A stretch of DNA of 8,059 bases from Thermoplasmata archaeon (GTDB taxonomy: Archaea; Thermoplasmatota; Thermoplasmata; Thermoplasmatales; Thermoplasmataceae). Positions 1,115 to 8,059 of the stretch are shown here, piece after piece (within the stretch, counting starts at the first letter, position 1; each line of letters begins with the position of its first letter). The stretch covers positions 1 through 8,059 of the forward strand of contig JAKAAK010000145.1 of the NCBI GenBank assembly GCA_021797025.1, in the 5' to 3' direction. The notes under the pieces were generated by a model that had not been told where the DNA came from, did not search any database, and worked only from the letters and a program-made list of their open reading frames with translations. Made by a program: the position numbers and the translations under genes.

Positions 1115-2428
1115 ATGGAAATTACAACACTGAATCCTTATACAGGCAATGAGCTGGGTAAATACGAAATTACAGATATAGATGGCGTAAAACGTATAAT
1201 ATCCGAATTAAAGCATAATCAATTAAGCTGGCGTGAAAATATGGATAAGAGAATTGACATGCTCCGGGAATCCCGCAATAATTTTGAAAGAAATGCAGAT
1301 AATCTAGCAAAATTAATGTCATCCGAAATGGGAAAACCTCTGTCCCAGAGCCTTGCCGAGGTCAAAAAAACACTCTGGCTCTTCGACTACTATCTGGAAA
1401 ATGGAAAAAATTTTCTTGCCGATGAATACGTTCAGACTGAAGCAAAGAAATCTTATGTGAAATTCGATCCACTGGGTGTCATAATTATTATCATGCCATG
1501 GAATTTTCCTCTCTGGCAGGTGGTCAGAGCAGCAATACCGGCATTACTGGTAGGAAACTCAGTGATGCTGAAACACGCCTCAATTGTGAGCGGAACCTCC
1601 CTGAAAATCCAGGAACTGTTTAATCTGGACACTTTTAAATCGGTAATAACCACCGGTAAAATCGTGGATGAAGCTATAAAATATTCGGATGGCGTTTCCT
1701 TTACTGGTTCCACTGCTGCCGGGTCTATAATAGCCTCCGAGGCGGCAAGGAACATTAAAAAATTCGTTATGGAACTGGGCGGTTCAGACCCTTATATAGT
1801 TCTTGACTCATCAAATATCGATGAGGCGGTAAAAAACAGTGTATATGCAAGGCTTCAAAATAACGGGCAGAGCTGCATTGCTTCCAAGAGATTCCTGGTC
1901 CAGGAGGATCTTTACGATGAATTTACAAAAAGAATGCTTGAAGAGTACAGCAAGGTCAAGGTAGGTGACCAGCTGGATAAAGACACATACATAGGGCCGC
2001 TTTCATCCGCATCACAGAAAGACATAATAGATAAACAGATAGCGGAACTCAGAACTATGGGAACAGTTCTATCAACAGGGGAAAATTATGGAAACGTTGT
2101 CAGGCCTACAATAATAAGGATGAACAGGGACTACGGAGAGGAGGTATTTGGCCCTATTGCCATGGTCAAATCCTTCAAAACTATAGAAGAAGCCATAAAA
2201 CTTGCCAACGATACTCCGTACGGCCTCGGATGCTCAATATGGGGGAATTCAGAGAAAGCTGAATCCATGGTTCCATACATAGACAGTGGCACCGTATCTA
2301 TCAATAAAATCGTTGCATCTGATCCCCGGCTTCCATTCGGGGGAACGAAGAAAAGCGGAATAGGGCGTGAACTGTCAAGATACGGAATTCTTGAATTTAC
2401 CAATATAAAGACTGTATGGGTAAATTGA
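1115..2428 (+). CDS. NAD(P)+-dependent aldehyde dehydrogenase, succinate-semialdehyde dehydrogenase (GabD1) type
   Basis: Oxidises an aldehyde to its acid with NAD(P)+ in the cytoplasm. All catalytic parts are present in the 437 residues: PWN at 128-130 (Asn130, oxyanion), Lys153 in MLKHAS (cofactor), FTGST at 196-200, general base Glu220 in ELGGSDP, nucleophile Cys254 in NNGQSCIASKRF, EEVFGP at 342-347 and PFGGTKKSGIGRE at 407-419. Glu220 and Cys254 are 34 apart, as usual in the superfamily. From memory, ELGGSDP, NNGQSCIA and the C-terminal IKTVW closely match the mycobacterial GabD1 type of succinate-semialdehyde dehydrogenase, which is about 20 residues longer. The deficit lies in loops before FTGST and before EEVFGP. 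A Thermoplasmatales glyceraldehyde dehydrogenase role is an alternative. It is the first gene of a likely two-gene operon with the MFS transporter 13 nt downstream. Leaderless start. Confidence 0.9.
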   Translation: MEITTLNPYTGNELGKYEITDIDGVKRIISELKHNQLSWRENMDKRIDMLRESRNNFERNADNLAKLMSSEMGKPLSQSLAEVKKTLWLFDYYLENGKNFLADEYVQTEAKKSYVKFDPLGVIIIIMPWNFPLWQVVRAAIPALLVGNSVMLKHASIVSGTSLKIQELFNLDTFKSVITTGKIVDEAIKYSDGVSFTGSTAAGSIIASEAARNIKKFVMELGGSDPYIVLDSSNIDEAVKNSVYARLQNNGQSCIASKRFLVQEDLYDEFTKRMLEEYSKVKVGDQLDKDTYIGPLSSASQKDIIDKQIAELRTMGTVLSTGENYGNVVRPTIIRMNRDYGEEVFGPIAMVKSFKTIEEAIKLANDTPYGLGCSIWGNSEKAESMVPYIDSGTVSINKIVASDPRLPFGGTKKSGIGRELSRYGILEFTNIKTVWVN

Positions 2429-2441
2429 ATTTCGCGGTTCA

Positions 2442-3584
2442 ATGAAGATCCAGAGTTATTTTATTTCTTTTTCGAAGTCATCAAGGTCCTTTATATTCGC
2501 CATGCTGGCAATTATAACGCCATTCTACCTTGCCAGGTTTGTAAATGTATTCGATGTTGGTATGATAGTGCTTTTCAGCATAGCCTTCTCCACGTTTATC
2601 ATATACCTGTTCCCGGCTATGCAAATCAAAAATAGCTATAAGATGTATATAATTTCAGGCGCACTTGCCATAGCACTGTTGCTGAATTTTATTTTTTATG
2701 ATTTCTATGTTTTCATTATATCGATCATGTTGGGATCAATCTCTCTCTCGGGAAGGGATATAAGCCCCAACCAGCCGATTGAACAGTATGCGATGAGCTA
2801 TTATGAAACAGATGCAAAAGGCAAAGGCAGGGCATTCTCCCTGTACAATTTCTTCTCATACGGCGCAGCAATAATAGCATCAATATTCCTGTTCCTTTAT
2901 ACCGATATAAATTACCGCATTGTTTTTTTTATACTTACGGTTATTGCCCTTTGCCAGTTCATACTTTACCTGTTTATCCGATTCCCGCAGAATAAACGGA
3001 TGGTGGCAAAAGACCTCAACCCTGAAACAAGGAAGCATGTATTTTCATTATCATACCTGTTTTCCATGGATGCACTTGCAGGAGGATTTGTAACTATATC
3101 CATGATATCCCTTTATTTCAAATACGTTTACCATATTTCACTGAGCACTGCAGGACTTATATTCATAGGCGTGAATGTAATAACAACCATATCTATCCTG
3201 ATATCACCGTTAATATCAGAAAAAATCGGGCTGATAAGGACAATGGTGTATACACATTCTGTCAGCAATATATTCCTGATGCTTGTTCCGGTTATTCATG
3301 TGCTGGCCATCAGTGAGATATTCCTGTTCTTGCGGCAGACAACGAGCCAGATGGATGTCCCTGCAAGAGATACACTAATAAATACAATAATTGAACCTGA
3401 TTACAGAATAAAAAGCAATTCTATATTCTCCGCAGTGAGGAATGGCTCAATGATACCCGGTCCGGGAATCGTGGGGGCTCTCATGTCGATATTCCCACCA
3501 TTCATGTTCCTTGCAGGAGGGGGTTTAAAACTTTCATATGATATAATTTTCTTCATAAAATATAGAAAAATCAGGATAGAATAA
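2442..3584 (+). CDS. Major facilitator superfamily (MFS) transporter, substrate unknown
   Basis: A polytopic membrane protein of 380 residues, short for MFS (usually 400 or more). Hydrophobic segments that I read as membrane helices lie near 17-32, 39-59, 68-86, 88-104, 133-152, 158-180, 202-226, 233-257, 270-289, 287-303, 336-356 and 358-374: about twelve, in two halves joined by a charged loop at 181-200 (NKRMVAKDLNPETRKH). The loop ISEKIGLIRTM at 258-268 resembles the C-half copy of MFS motif A. QMDVPARDTLINTIIEPD at 303-320 and the Gly/Pro-rich stretch at 335-346 are typical of small archaeal and bacterial drug or sugar efflux members. The ATG at 2442 is the first possible start after an in-frame stop at 2421-2423. 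There is no clear Shine-Dalgarno site, so translation may be coupled to the aldehyde dehydrogenase. Neither the substrate nor the direction of transport can be read; moving a substrate or product of the neighbouring oxidation enzymes is inference. Confidence 0.85.
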   Translation: MKIQSYFISFSKSSRSFIFAMLAIITPFYLARFVNVFDVGMIVLFSIAFSTFIIYLFPAMQIKNSYKMYIISGALAIALLLNFIFYDFYVFIISIMLGSISLSGRDISPNQPIEQYAMSYYETDAKGKGRAFSLYNFFSYGAAIIASIFLFLYTDINYRIVFFILTVIALCQFILYLFIRFPQNKRMVAKDLNPETRKHVFSLSYLFSMDALAGGFVTISMISLYFKYVYHISLSTAGLIFIGVNVITTISILISPLISEKIGLIRTMVYTHSVSNIFLMLVPVIHVLAISEIFLFLRQTTSQMDVPARDTLINTIIEPDYRIKSNSIFSAVRNGSMIPGPGIVGALMSIFPPFMFLAGGGLKLSYDIIFFIKYRKIRIE

Positions 3585-3886: not shown

Positions 3887-4825
3887 ATGAAAGTAATTGC
3901 TATTTTACCAGCATTTCTCGATATCGGAATGATAAAAAAATCGATAGACCAGATTATGCCGGGCATAGAAATTTTAACGGATATGGATTTTGAAAAAAAT
4001 GATGCGGACGTAGTTGTAATCACAACTTTTACTCCCTTCGGGAAAAAAGAGCTGGATAAATTCCCTGAACTAAAATTCCTGCAGGTAGCCAGTACTGGTT
4101 ATAATAATGTGGACATAAAGGAGATCAGAAGGAGAAACATATTATTATGCAACGTTCCCGTTGCAAATAAGGAAGCTGTCGCGGAACATGTGATAGGCAT
4201 GGTTCTCTCTCTTCTCAAAAATTTTCTTCTGTTCGATAGCCAGATAAAATCGGGCAACTGGCCACTTCTTACAAATTCCAGGGAATTGCAGGGTAAAACA
4301 TTCGGAATAATAGGTATGGGAGCCATAGGAATAAAATTAATCCAGAGACTAATCCCCTTCAATGTTGGTATTGTTTATTATGATCCGAGAAGATTATCCC
4401 CTGAGGATGAGGAATTCTATGGAGTTACCTACCTTGAACTTGACGATCTTGTAGCATCATCTGACATAATATCTATACATACACCTCTGACAAAAAGTAC
4501 AAAACTCATGTTCAATACAGAAAGATTCAATCTAATGAAGGATGGCGCAATATTCATTAATACATCCAGGGGAGAGATTGTAGATGAAACCGCCCTTGTT
4601 AAAGCGATAAAGGAAAAGAACATATATGCCGGCATAGATGTGTTCAGTCAGGAACCGCCTGATTTCTCCTCGGAGCTCCTCCATCTGGATAACGTACTTT
4701 TCAGTCCACATATTGCAGGGGTAACCATGGAAAGCCAGGAAAGATTCATCACGGAAACTATAGGGAATATAATAAGATATTCACAGGGAATAGACCCTCT
4801 TTACAGGGTGGAGGATGAACTATGA
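3887..4825 (+). CDS. D-isomer-specific 2-hydroxyacid dehydrogenase (NAD-type)
   Basis: Interconverts a (D)-2-hydroxyacid and its 2-oxoacid with a nicotinamide cofactor; cytoplasmic. In the 312 residues: substrate-domain motif TGYNNVDI at 70-77, PVANKEAVAEH at 91-101, Rossmann motif GMGAIG at 143-148, Asp166 at the end of the second strand (YYDPRR, which favours NAD over NADP), and the catalytic set Arg228 in NTSRGEIVDE, Glu256 in DVFSQEPP and His275 in SPHIAG. The length equals the core family, with no ACT or other regulatory domain, so this is not a long-form phosphoglycerate dehydrogenase. Glyoxylate, hydroxypyruvate, lactate-like or aromatic 2-oxoacids are all possible substrates. Its stop codon overlaps the start of the ThDP decarboxylase (ATGA), so the two products are probably made together and may share a 2-oxoacid. 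The leaderless start follows a good TATA box. Confidence 0.93.
   Translation: MKVIAILPAFLDIGMIKKSIDQIMPGIEILTDMDFEKNDADVVVITTFTPFGKKELDKFPELKFLQVASTGYNNVDIKEIRRRNILLCNVPVANKEAVAEHVIGMVLSLLKNFLLFDSQIKSGNWPLLTNSRELQGKTFGIIGMGAIGIKLIQRLIPFNVGIVYYDPRRLSPEDEEFYGVTYLELDDLVASSDIISIHTPLTKSTKLMFNTERFNLMKDGAIFINTSRGEIVDETALVKAIKEKNIYAGIDVFSQEPPDFSSELLHLDNVLFSPHIAGVTMESQERFITETIGNIIRYSQGIDPLYRVEDEL
4810..4814 (+). promoter_or_regulatory. Shine-Dalgarno site of the decarboxylase gene
   Basis: GGAGG inside the end of the dehydrogenase gene, 7 nt before the ATG at 4822. It fixes that start and shows that this operon-internal gene uses SD-led initiation, unlike the leaderless first gene. Confidence 0.75.
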
Positions 4826-6363
4826 AAGGATATGAAATACTTGAAAAAACCCTTAATACACTGAAGCTTGGCCCTGTATTCGGAAATCCCGGCACAACGG
4901 AGATACCCATGCTCCGGGGAATAAAGGATTATTATCTCACATTGCATGATTCAATAGCTCTGGGCATGGCTGACGGTTATGCCCAGTACAATGATTGTGC
5001 CTCCACAGTCAACCTCCACTCGCTTCCCGGTCTTGGAAATGCAATGTCATTTGTGAATACTGCAAAATGGAACCGTTCTCCAGTTGTTATTACGGCCGGG
5101 CAGCAGGATACCAGGCATCTGGTGTATGATCCTTTACTGTCGGGCGACCTGATACATACTGTATCCGGGCTTGTGAAGTATAGTTATGAGATCAAGAATC
5201 CATCGGACATACCTGTTGCATTCAGAAGAGCAAAAGCAATAGCCCTTACACCGCCGAGAGGACCTGTATTCATTTCAATTCCCATGGATATTATGGATTA
5301 TGATGCGGAAATCCCCGATCCCAGAGATGTCCATATAAACTTCTCCTACTCGGATTCCGAGGCTATCAAGGAAATAGTTGACAGAATTAATAGTTCAAAA
5401 CGCCCTGCACTGGTATTTGGATATGAGATTGATTTATATGACGCATATAAGGAAGCGGTGGAATTCGCCGGAAAACTGGGAGTGGAGGTCTACAGCGAAC
5501 CACTGGCATCCAGGGGGACCTTCAATACAGATGATGAACATTATAACGGTGATCTCCTTCCCGCATCAACATTGATGAACCTTAAATTTTTGAACAATGA
5601 CCTTATAGTATTTATCGGCGGGGACATCACATTTTATCCATATCTTCCATCCTCTCCATTTCCTGGGAAGGACGTAATATTCATCGGTACAGATATATCC
5701 GATAAGACGGGGGATTCATACATAATTAATCCCAAGGTCTTTCTAAGGGAGGCTGTAAAATCGATCCGGAGGAAGGGAGAATTCCATAAACCCCGTGATT
5801 TTCTATACGCTAATAAGATAGCCAGAGAAAGATTGACTATGGGCGTTGACTACGTTCTGTACAATGCCAGAAAAATCTTTTCTGATTATACGGTTGTCGA
5901 CGAGGCCATATCTGCATCGGAGACCGTCCGGGCAACATTCGGCTACAGCCATAACAAATATTTCACTGCAAAATCCGGTCAACTGGGATGGGCTACAGCA
6001 GCATCCCTCGGCATTGGCATCAAAAATCCCAGGACACTGGTAATTATAGGTGATGGAGCCTTCATGTATACAATACAGGGATTGTGGACTGCAAAGAGAT
6101 ACCATATACCGGTAAAGTTCATTGTGCTCAACAACGGGGGATACAACATATTGAAGAGTTATTCCAAAAGTTATTATCCTGATATGGAGCATAAGGATTA
6201 TTTTGATCTTAAATTGGATGTGGCATCAGCTGCAGCCGGATTCGGGGTTGAAACTATGACGGCATCAGGAAACCTTGAAGAACTGAAATGGCTGCATGAG
6301 GGGAATGAACCAAAAGTTCTGATTGTAAATAGTGAAAAAACTGTGGAAAAAATGTTTTTATGA
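4822..6363 (+). CDS. ThDP-dependent 2-oxoacid decarboxylase, benzoylformate decarboxylase-like, with Asp in place of the catalytic Glu
   Basis: A cytoplasmic thiamine-diphosphate enzyme of 513 residues (Pseudomonas putida benzoylformate decarboxylase, BFD, has 528) expected to act on a 2-oxoacid. The N-terminal pyrimidine-binding domain has FGNPGTTEIP at 20-29, MADGYAQ at 49-55, NLHSLPGLGNAM at 64-75 (His66 = BFD His70) and TAGQQ at 91-95. The central domain spans about 180-330. The C-terminal domain has GQLGWATAA at 386-394 and the ThDP/Mg motif GDG at 410-412 running to NNGG at 437-440. Compared from memory with BFD, Ser26 becomes Thr25, the cofactor-activating Glu47 becomes Asp43, and His281 becomes Pro273 in TFYPY. 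It is therefore family-like but may not be a benzoylformate decarboxylase; a slow decarboxylase, a carboligase or another 2-oxoacid specificity are options. It overlaps the 2-hydroxyacid dehydrogenase by 4 nt and has a strong GGAGG site. An aldehyde product would suit the nearby aldehyde dehydrogenases. Confidence 0.88.
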   Translation: MKGYEILEKTLNTLKLGPVFGNPGTTEIPMLRGIKDYYLTLHDSIALGMADGYAQYNDCASTVNLHSLPGLGNAMSFVNTAKWNRSPVVITAGQQDTRHLVYDPLLSGDLIHTVSGLVKYSYEIKNPSDIPVAFRRAKAIALTPPRGPVFISIPMDIMDYDAEIPDPRDVHINFSYSDSEAIKEIVDRINSSKRPALVFGYEIDLYDAYKEAVEFAGKLGVEVYSEPLASRGTFNTDDEHYNGDLLPASTLMNLKFLNNDLIVFIGGDITFYPYLPSSPFPGKDVIFIGTDISDKTGDSYIINPKVFLREAVKSIRRKGEFHKPRDFLYANKIARERLTMGVDYVLYNARKIFSDYTVVDEAISASETVRATFGYSHNKYFTAKSGQLGWATAASLGIGIKNPRTLVIIGDGAFMYTIQGLWTAKRYHIPVKFIVLNNGGYNILKSYSKSYYPDMEHKDYFDLKLDVASAAAGFGVETMTASGNLEELKWLHEGNEPKVLIVNSEKTVEKMFL

Positions 6364-6374
6364 ATCCACCTCTA

Positions 6375-6379
6375 TTTTT
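6375..6379 (+). terminator. Possible T-run terminator after the decarboxylase
   Basis: TTTTT lies 11 nt after the stop codon. Archaeal RNA polymerase can terminate on short T-runs without a hairpin, and the next gene has its own TATA box. Five T's is a weak signal. Confidence 0.25.
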
Positions 6380-6422
6380 ATCAATGAATTCCAATAACAG
6401 GTATAATATCTTCCTCATAAAC

Positions 6423-6434
6423 TTAATATATATT
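6423..6434 (+). promoter_or_regulatory. TATA-like box for the SCP2 gene
   Basis: TTAATATATATT is centred about 25 nt before the ATG at 6453. No Shine-Dalgarno is visible, so the message is probably leaderless. This suggests the gene is transcribed separately from the decarboxylase operon. Confidence 0.45.
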
Positions 6435-6452
6435 CTACTTGTATAGTTAGTT

Positions 6453-6860
6453 ATGGCAATATTTCCGAGTGAAGAATGGGCAAAGGAATATGTTGAAAAG
6501 CTAAACTCAAACAGTGCTTACCAGGAGGCTGGCAAAACATGGGACGATTCAATAACGTTTGTTGTGGAACCTGATGATTCCTATAATAACTCATGGAATA
6601 TGTTTCTGGATTTGAAGGCAGGGAAGTGCGTGAAATATCAGGTCGGGAAGGAGGAGAGCGATGTTCCTGCATCAACATTCAAATATAAGGGAAAATATTC
6701 AAACTGGGTAAAACTCATCAAAGGGGAAATTGATCCCATACAGGGATTGATGACCGGCAAATTCAAACTGGAAGGGTCAATGATGAAAATTATGAGGTAT
6801 ACCAATGCAGCCAAAGAAATGGTGAATACAGCAGCAAAGGTAGATACACAGTTTAAATGA
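6453..6860 (+). CDS. SCP2 sterol-carrier-fold protein, small hydrophobic-ligand binder
   Basis: A stand-alone 135-residue SCP2-domain protein, predicted soluble and cytoplasmic with no signal peptide or membrane helix. Seen: the start FPSEEWAKEYVEKLNSNSAYQEAGKTW at 4-30 (not all invariant), a central sheet at 34-77 (ITFVVEP, MFLDLKAGKCVKY), YSNWVKLIKGEIDPIQGLMTGKFKLEGSM at 82-110, and the final helix IMRYTNAAKEMV at 113-124. The W..LIKGE.DP..GLM.GK.KL.G pattern is the core of the family and lines its hydrophobic pocket. Archaea of this type do not make sterols, so the ligand is more likely a lipid, fatty acyl or aromatic compound. It lies between the decarboxylase and the second aldehyde dehydrogenase, with its own promoter. 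Binding a hydrophobic intermediate of that pathway is a guess from position only. Confidence 0.88.
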   Translation: MAIFPSEEWAKEYVEKLNSNSAYQEAGKTWDDSITFVVEPDDSYNNSWNMFLDLKAGKCVKYQVGKEESDVPASTFKYKGKYSNWVKLIKGEIDPIQGLMTGKFKLEGSMMKIMRYTNAAKEMVNTAAKVDTQFK

Positions 6861-6867
6861 TAACATA

Positions 6868-6886
6868 TAAATTATAATATAATTTA
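6868..6886. repeat. Perfect 19-bp AT palindrome upstream of the second aldehyde dehydrogenase
   Basis: TAAATTATAATATAATTTA has 9-bp arms around one central A, directly after the SCP2 stop and about 15 bp before the TATA-like element at 6902. It could be an operator. Since every base is A or T in an AT-rich gap, chance is a real alternative. Confidence 0.3.
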
Positions 6887-6901
6887 CAATAATTTTGGCA
6901 C

Positions 6902-6909
6902 ATTTAAAG
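6902..6909 (+). promoter_or_regulatory. TATA-like element for the second aldehyde dehydrogenase
   Basis: ATTTAAAG is centred about 40 nt before the ATG at 6945. A start site about 26 nt downstream would give a leader near 14 nt that carries the GGTGAT ribosome site. An upstream AT-rich run could serve instead. Confidence 0.3.
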
Positions 6910-6935
6910 TTTCATGGGAATTGATTATAAATCGT

Positions 6936-6941
6936 GGTGAT
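6936..6941 (+). promoter_or_regulatory. Shine-Dalgarno site GGTGAT
   Basis: GGTGAT matches the 3' part of the archaeal Shine-Dalgarno consensus GGAGGTGAT and sits 3 nt before the ATG at 6945, which supports that start. Confidence 0.6.
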
Positions 6942-6944
6942 AAA

Positions 6945-8059
6945 ATGGAGAAAGTTTTTGGGAATATAATTAATGGTAAAGAGGAAACAGATGGAGAAAA
7001 AATACCGGTCAAAAGTCCTGTGGACGGGCATCTGATCGGCTATATAGTTGATTCAGGAATGGATGAGGTCAACAGGGCAGTTGATTCTTCGATGGAAACA
7101 TTCAACGGCCAATGGAAACATACAGAAATTGCCGACAGGCAAAAAATGATAGGAAAGCTTGCCGATATCATCCAGGAAAAGGCAGAAGAATATGCAAACC
7201 TTGAATCAATAAATACTGGCAAAACTATCAGGCAGAGCACTTTCATGGATATACCACTGGCAATTTCACACATCCGGTATTTTGCAGAAACGGATGAATT
7301 CAAGTATGAACGGAAGATAGAGCACCCGGAATACCCGGGCACATACGGAATAATACAGAACGCGCCCATGGGTGTTGTGGCATCAATAGCGCCATGGAAT
7401 GTGCCTTTCCTCATGGCAGTATGGAAAACAATTCCACCCATGCTTGCAGGAAACACCGTGGTCTTAAAGCCCTCGCACTATACACCACTTACGGCTATTG
7501 AACTTGTAAAGGATATGAAAAAAGCAGGATTCCCAGATGGTGCAGCCAATCTTATAAACGGTACCGGAAGAAAAGCTGGAAATTATCTTATTGAAAATAA
7601 AAAAATTGGCATGATAAGTTTTACAGGTTCCACTAACACAGGAATAAAGATTATGGAGCAGGGTGCGAAAGGGCTCAAAAAAGTAACACTGGAACTTGGG
7701 GGCAAATCACCGAATATAGTATTTTCTGATGCTGACATGGAACATGCTGCAAAGGGAGTTATATTTGGAATATTCCTGAACGCTGGTCAACTATGCGAAT
7801 CCGCAAGCAGGCTCATAATAGAGGAAAGCGCGCTGGATAGTTTCATGGAAAAAATGAAAAAATACCTGCAGAATATGAAAGCCGGAAATCCAATGGATTA
7901 CGAAACCGATATAAGTGCCATTACAACCATGGAGCAAAAGGAGAAAATAGAGAAGCTTGTCAGTGAAACCATAAATGCAGGCGGGAATGTATTATATTCC
8001 CGGGATCTTGCGGGTTCAGTGCCGGAAAGTGGTACATACTTCCCGCCAACAATGTTGTC
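6945..8059 (+). CDS. NAD(P)+-dependent aldehyde dehydrogenase, C-terminus beyond the window
   Basis: Oxidises an aldehyde to its acid. The frame stays open to the right edge, giving 371 residues of an expected 480-500. Seen: IINGKE at 8-13, as in full-length ALDHs with an N-terminal extension; PWNVPF at 150-155 (Asn152); KPSHYTP at 175-181 (Lys175); FTGST at 226-230; general base Glu250 in LELGGKSPNIV; and nucleophile Cys284 in NAGQLCESASR. Glu250 and Cys284 are 34 apart, as expected. The missing part would hold the E-x-F-GP and C-terminal motifs. It belongs to a different ALDH subgroup from the one at 1115: here ELGGKSP and GQLCxSASR, typical of broad or betaine/aromatic-aldehyde enzymes, against ELGGSDP and GQSCIASKR there. 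The start is set by GGTGAT just upstream. It could oxidise the aldehyde released by the decarboxylase; the substrate is unknown. Confidence 0.9.
   Translation, partial: MEKVFGNIINGKEETDGEKIPVKSPVDGHLIGYIVDSGMDEVNRAVDSSMETFNGQWKHTEIADRQKMIGKLADIIQEKAEEYANLESINTGKTIRQSTFMDIPLAISHIRYFAETDEFKYERKIEHPEYPGTYGIIQNAPMGVVASIAPWNVPFLMAVWKTIPPMLAGNTVVLKPSHYTPLTAIELVKDMKKAGFPDGAANLINGTGRKAGNYLIENKKIGMISFTGSTNTGIKIMEQGAKGLKKVTLELGGKSPNIVFSDADMEHAAKGVIFGIFLNAGQLCESASRLIIEESALDSFMEKMKKYLQNMKAGNPMDYETDISAITTMEQKEKIEKLVSETINAGGNVLYSRDLAGSVPESGTYFPPTML

Follow-up and report, generated by a model that had tools for sequence, protein, structure and literature searches.

Archaeal benzoylformate decarboxylase-like enzymes in which a fixed aspartate replaces the canonical cofactor-activating glutamate

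The window analysed in this work, the whole of an 8,059-nucleotide stretch from a Thermoplasmata archaeon (contig JAKAAK010000145.1), contains a gene for a thiamine diphosphate (ThDP)-dependent enzyme related to benzoylformate decarboxylase (BFD), which is accompanied by genes for a D-2-hydroxyacid dehydrogenase (2HADH) and for aldehyde dehydrogenases (Table 1). The last 3,677 bases of the window are 99.755% identical to another sequence, L002 ('Thermoplasmata archaeon isolate WH5.bin18'). The encoded ThDP protein contains the PYR, middle and PP domains, all of which were detected above the Pfam cut-off. In a survey of the superfamily, the position that contacts N1' of the cofactor was occupied by Glu in 94% of the sequences and by Val in 3% (PMC3534367); no breakdown of the remaining 3% was seen, and Asp enzymes may be among it, unremarked. 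A theoretical study of BFD treated this residue, Glu47, as an ionised group with a hydrogen bond to the protonated N1' (PMC6028569). In the window protein, this position, where Glu serves as a criterion of the superfamily, is occupied by Asp43.

Table 1. Genes and active-site residues identified in the window
Feature	Position	Strand	Basis or remark
Aldehyde dehydrogenase, 437 aa, succinate-semialdehyde-dehydrogenase-like	1115..2428	+	Pfam Aldedh 2.5e-113; best NCBIfam model below cut-off
Major facilitator transporter	2442..3584	+	Pfam MFS_1
2HADH	3887..4825	+	Pfam 2-Hacid_dh, 2-Hacid_dh_C
ThDP-dependent enzyme, BFD-like Asp clade, 513 aa	4822..6363	+	ATG start; Pfam TPP_enzyme_N, M, C
Glu27, equivalent of BFD Glu28 (relay proton donor)	4900..4902	+	E in 150/151, gap in other
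Asp43, codon GAT, position of BFD Glu47 (N1' contact)	4948..4950	+	Alignment to PDB chains
His66, equivalent of BFD His70 (proton relay, oxyanion hole)	5017..5019	+	H in 151/151
Asp411 of Mg-binding GDG motif	6052..6054	+	D in 129/151, E in 22/151
SCP2-like lipid-binding protein	6453..6860	+	Pfam SCP2 4.1e-10
Aldehyde dehydrogenase, cut by window end	6921..8057	+	TTG start at 6921, ATG a few codons on

In phmmer alignments with PDB chains, Asp43 was paired with the Glu of the LQEA motif of BFD from P. putida and of proteins related to it, and the alignment from Asp43 through ADGYAQ was ungapped; because the latter motif fixes the register, this placement is unambiguous. In a predicted structure of the monomer without ThDP (mean predicted local distance difference test score, pLDDT, 94.9), for which the best PDB matches were BFDs (25–34% identity in the structural alignments), a strand at residues 37–39 is followed by Asp43 in the first turn of a helix spanning residues 43–57. 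A sequence-only reading of this DNA had assigned GAT (Asp43) to the position of Glu47, and this assignment is borne out by the phmmer alignment and by the presence of Asp in all 151 members of the clade described below. Its description of the flanking motif as fully conserved does not hold, as TLHDSIALGMADGYAQ and ALQEACVVGIADGYAQ are identical at 8 of 16 residues in the same alignment.

A search with the window protein as the query gave 6,685 homologues, of which the best 120, extending to about 49% identity and derived from both genomes and metagenomes, were listed; these include the window's own protein (P0001), and after exclusion of P0083, a fragment without the site, Asp was present in all 119 that covered it. 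In an alignment of the clade to which these proteins belong, Asp was found at position 43 in 151 of 151 members, and this was the sole invariant column among the 29 columns in which Asp is the commonest residue. The clade, which is mainly archaeal and is made up of Thermoplasmatota and Sulfolobales-type Thermoproteota, includes Ferroplasma acidarmanus and Thermoplasma volcanium (P0062), and the earlier suggestion of a distinct lineage is supported, Asp being fixed in it. Orthologues carrying Glu were looked for, and those of the clade were found to carry Asp throughout; no match under the names Picrophilus or Acidiplasma was present among the matches listed.

When a Sulfolobales-type member (L048) was used as the query, Asp was present in 37 and Glu in 83 of the 120 proteins listed out of 1,056. 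The Asp proteins consisted of 34 members of the main clade, among them named Sulfolobus, Saccharolobus and Acidianus proteins and one labelled 'bacterium HR19', together with P0275, P0290 and P0309, which are considered below; on account of 'bacterium HR19' the clade is regarded as mainly, perhaps not wholly, archaeal. With L052, which scored best among the Glu relatives when 200 genomes from the phylum of Thermocladium were surveyed, Glu was present in all of the 120 proteins listed of 2,035. Two phylum surveys, covering 194 and 200 genomes, gave matches in 48 and 166 of these, respectively, mostly to other ThDP enzymes. Among the loci L007–L074 taken from these surveys (best matches only) in which the site was covered, those with at least 30% identity all contained Asp and those with 21–28% identity all contained Glu. 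The codon at the site was GAT in 25 and GAC in 10 of 35 Asp rows, some of which represent the same place repeated. Comparison of the window gene with that of Ferroplasma gave a pS of 0.78, at which synonymous sites are saturated, and a pN of 0.13. Together with the invariance of the residue, the use of both codons and this saturation indicate that its conservation exceeds what chance would give.

The origin of the Asp was examined in a maximum-likelihood tree of 79 rows, which was constructed with column 43 omitted and rooted with four acetolactate-synthase-like rows. The rows were cluster representatives, the query taking the place of P0001 and P0275 standing for P0290, and L011, L075 and three of the 14 Glu representatives from the L052 search were left out. 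In this tree, 43 Asp rows formed a single clade with a support of 100/100, which was nested inside the Glu-bearing BFD-like enzymes, and P0275 and P0309 were observed to branch as a separate Asp pair. Constraining all 45 Asp rows to one clade cost 62 log-likelihood units, and as this forced arrangement is disfavoured (p-value of the approximately unbiased test, p-AU, 0.0026), the sequences indicate that the change from Glu to Asp most likely arose twice independently and was then retained. The members of the second lineage (P0275, P0290 and P0309) are metagenomic BFD-like proteins, in which the site is followed by AHGY instead of ADGY. They resemble the main clade in having Asp at the same position and in retaining the Glu28-His70 relay (BFD numbering) in P0275 and P0309, both of which were aligned, but they differ from it in their separate origin and in the presence of Asn at the position of Phe77 and of Thr at the position of Gly386 near ThDP. 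Plasmid records matching the window protein numbered 680, of which 40 were listed and five fetched, and the four placed in the tree all contained Glu; P0275 matched 1,622 plasmid records, every one of them at less than 60% identity.

In BFD, Glu28 pairs with His70, and its role in the proton relay is described in PMC6028569. The equivalents of both residues are retained in the Asp clade (Table 1), and the Mg/diphosphate motif is present in the window protein as G410-D411-G412 together with N438. In 22 of the 151 members, including P0055, P0056, P0057, P0059 and P0063, GEG was observed in place of GDG; as the carriers present in the tree (P0055 and P0114) were not sisters, the acid swap at position 411 may also recur. 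Apart from Asp43, two acids are conserved in the N-terminal domain, Glu27 and Glu123 (150/151 and 148/151, respectively). Since these two are also carried by the Glu-bearing relatives (29/30 and 25/30, respectively), a Glu relocated to N1', which the sequence-only reading had named as a possible refutation, was rejected; judged from sequence alone, no other Glu takes over this position.

The acids that are specific for the clade, namely Glu202, Asp204 and Glu226, are located in the middle domain. Glu226 was present in 43/43 rows of the main Asp clade, in 2/2 of the second lineage and in 6/30 Glu rows, including P0146, which was placed near the second lineage; in view of this placement, and with only two origins of Asp, the association is without statistical force. 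Trp490 was observed in 35/43, 2/2 and 3/30 of the same rows. Both Glu226 and Trp490 (positions 5497–5499 and 6289–6291 of the window) may be regarded as possible co-changes. Phe/Tyr77, Lys/Arg432, Leu/Phe491 and residue 387 set the main Asp clade apart from the Glu enzymes, and as they do not set the second lineage apart, they are not required for Asp. A published Glu51 motif, taken from PMC3534367, was dropped as a marker, as it matched 0/43 and 0/2 of the Asp rows and 0/30 of the Glu rows.

Other ThDP enzymes encoded by genomes of the Asp clade were also compared, and in alignments to an acetolactate synthase Glu was present in all 20 of this non-exhaustive choice. When the window protein served as the query, Glu was read in 18 of them, and the Arg and Val read in L102 and L114, respectively, are taken as a probable misalignment of RDER. 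Ferroplasma acidarmanus contains three Asp copies (78, 45 and 46% identity) and has Glu in two other ThDP enzymes (L013 and L015). Six further paralogues from six genomes, with identities of 44–47%, all contained Asp.

The 2HADH and ThDP genes of the window overlap by four bases (ATGA) and are therefore probably translated together. Of 26 loci, 20 (L001–L006 and L080–L093, without exception) have a 2HADH gene adjoining that of the ThDP enzyme; the 26 include L002, which is nearly identical to the window, L083, which has a gap of 0.7 kb, and L006, which is broken. In this last locus, from Thermocladium modestius, both genes are broken over several frames (5064–7568), due either to decay or to errors of the draft assembly. 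A related cassette is intact in a metagenome-assembled genome labelled Thermocladium (L003), and the cassette may hence have crossed archaeal phyla. Near the ThDP gene, SCP2 was found in 12/26 and a second aldehyde dehydrogenase in 10/26 loci; the identification of the latter at the end of the window is based upon its match to a gene of L084 (2909–4396), which itself matches Pfam Aldedh. In L084, L086 and L088, the three loci in which the gene adjoining the aldehyde dehydrogenase was scanned, this gene encodes an iron-type alcohol dehydrogenase, and FAD-linked oxidases are located farther away in L084 and L088. In L088, the interval that separates the cassette from the FAD-linked oxidase contains a diacylglycerol-kinase-like gene (1897–2790). 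In the Thermoproteota, the neighbours were different, namely an aldehyde dehydrogenase, an amidohydrolase, a symporter and a lactate permease in L095, and an amino-acid permease and succinate-dehydrogenase-like genes in L096. The window's 2HADH scored best against the models for phosphoglycerate dehydrogenase and glyoxylate reductase, in all cases below the cut-offs. The gene context suggests a route between 2-hydroxyacid, 2-oxoacid and aldehyde. Alpha-oxidation of lipids, which the SCP2 neighbour had brought to mind, was set aside as the evidence for it is wanting.

With the position of the Asp, its fixation and nested origin, the intact Glu28-His70 relay and the ThDP and Mg motifs in place, the window protein is probably a functional archaeal ThDP-dependent 2-oxoacid decarboxylase of the BFD type, with Asp43 in the place usually taken by Glu. 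In such an enzyme, ionised Asp43 would form a hydrogen bond with the aminopyrimidine held by the adjacent subunit, at its protonated N1'. This contact could be direct, if the helix or the cofactor shifts slightly, or could be made via water, and it would drive amino-imino tautomerisation and the formation of the ylide, which would then attack a 2-oxoacid, followed by the departure of CO2 and the release of an aldehyde. The neighbouring genes suggest that the overlapping 2HADH may exchange the 2-oxoacid with a D-2-hydroxyacid, and that the aldehyde may be oxidised by the aldehyde dehydrogenase; in some relatives it may instead be reduced by the iron-type alcohol dehydrogenase. The alternative raised earlier, a reaction other than simple decarboxylation, is unsupported so far, as the relay is kept and the neighbours appear to fit a route from 2-oxoacid to aldehyde. 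More tentatively, and with somewhat less than even confidence, we propose that throughout a large branch of archaeal ThDP enzymes the cofactor is activated by a natural Asp, acting directly or via bound water, that the balance of tautomers is shifted there and changes in packing compensate (Phe/Tyr77, Gln387 and Glu226 being candidates), and that the same change from Glu to Asp evolved twice.

A number of observations weigh against the assignment as a BFD-type decarboxylase. The score of the protein with the NCBIfam equivalog model for BFD (NF005485) was 313.2 bits, against a cut-off of 493, and Ser26 and His281 of BFD are replaced by Thr25 and Tyr272 in the window protein. The 2HADH gene is absent in six of the 26 loci (L094–L097 from Thermoproteota and the extra Ferroplasma copies L098–L099), and the gene context is thus not valid for the whole clade. 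Further, an iron-type alcohol dehydrogenase gene was not found between the SCP2 and aldehyde dehydrogenase genes in either the window or L001, and sequence searches of the PDB showed no member of the clade with a solved structure.

Other explanations of the Asp are in our view less probable. It is unlikely that the enzyme resembles glyoxylate carboligase, in the sense that protonation of N1' is dispensable, deprotonation of C2 is not rate-limiting and Asp tunes a later step, the reaction possibly being that of a carboligase or lyase. The natural Val of that family, which the survey describes as typical of the whole family and reads as indicating a different mechanism (PMC3534367), would provide a precedent, and the models against which the 2HADH scored best, although below their cut-offs, are in keeping with it. 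However, unlike the situation with Val, the acid has never been lost in the clade (151/151), the Glu-His relay of BFD is kept, the score with the glyoxylate carboligase model (NCBIfam NF008431) was 93.5 bits against a cut-off of 791, and the neighbouring genes suit aldehyde metabolism.

An adaptation to low internal pH or to heat, whereby Asp with its lower pKa remains ionised in the cytoplasm of an acidophile, would accord with the named members of the clade, as Ferroplasma, Thermoplasma, Sulfolobus, Saccharolobus and Acidianus are all acidophiles; but since Glu is kept in further ThDP enzymes that these genomes encode (20/20 paralogues as well as L013 and L015 of Ferroplasma), a general explanation of this kind is quite improbable. 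We give still less weight to a weak or non-catalytic enzyme of relaxed function that is retained for another role. In mutants of other ThDP enzymes, an acid shorter by one carbon usually harms catalysis, and the same would be expected here, but the Glu28-His70 relay and the residues of the ThDP site have been held and pN is low. A sequencing error or private change merits hardly any credence and is already refuted by the presence of Asp in 119/119 homologues covering the site.

If Asp does activate the cofactor in this branch, nature would have solved ThDP activation in a second way beside the Val of glyoxylate carboligase, one in which the acid is kept and its reach is changed. The fixed Asp clade, with its relay intact, and the second origin make the geometric demand on ThDP activation testable with natural enzymes rather than crippled mutants, and the presence of Asp at the N1' position is a caution against labelling such sequences as inactive or mis-sequenced. 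No description of a natural family with Asp at this position was found in searches of the open-licence literature; a Glu-to-Asp loss described in PMC13327070 concerns a different glutamate (E493) and was not used.

The clade shares with P. putida MdlC (1BFD) and its M. smegmatis relative 4q9d the three-domain fold, the ThDP and Mg motifs and the Glu28-His70 relay, and equivalents of Gly401 and Leu403 of BFD are present in most of its members. It differs from BFD in that Glu47 is replaced by Asp, Ser26 by Thr, His281 by Tyr and Gly402 by Gln, and in the presence of Phe/Tyr at the equivalent of position 81. Glyoxylate carboligase is similar to the clade in showing a natural, family-wide departure from the N1' glutamate (PMC3534367), but it contains Val, whereas the clade has kept an acid and its sequence is far from the carboligase model. 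The ThDP enzymes of these archaea that resemble acetolactate synthase belong to the same superfamily and occur in the same genomes, and those examined keep Glu. The fold, the family and the chemistry are already known, whereas the clade with fixed Asp, its two origins and the linkage to 2HADH are, as far as we have seen, new.
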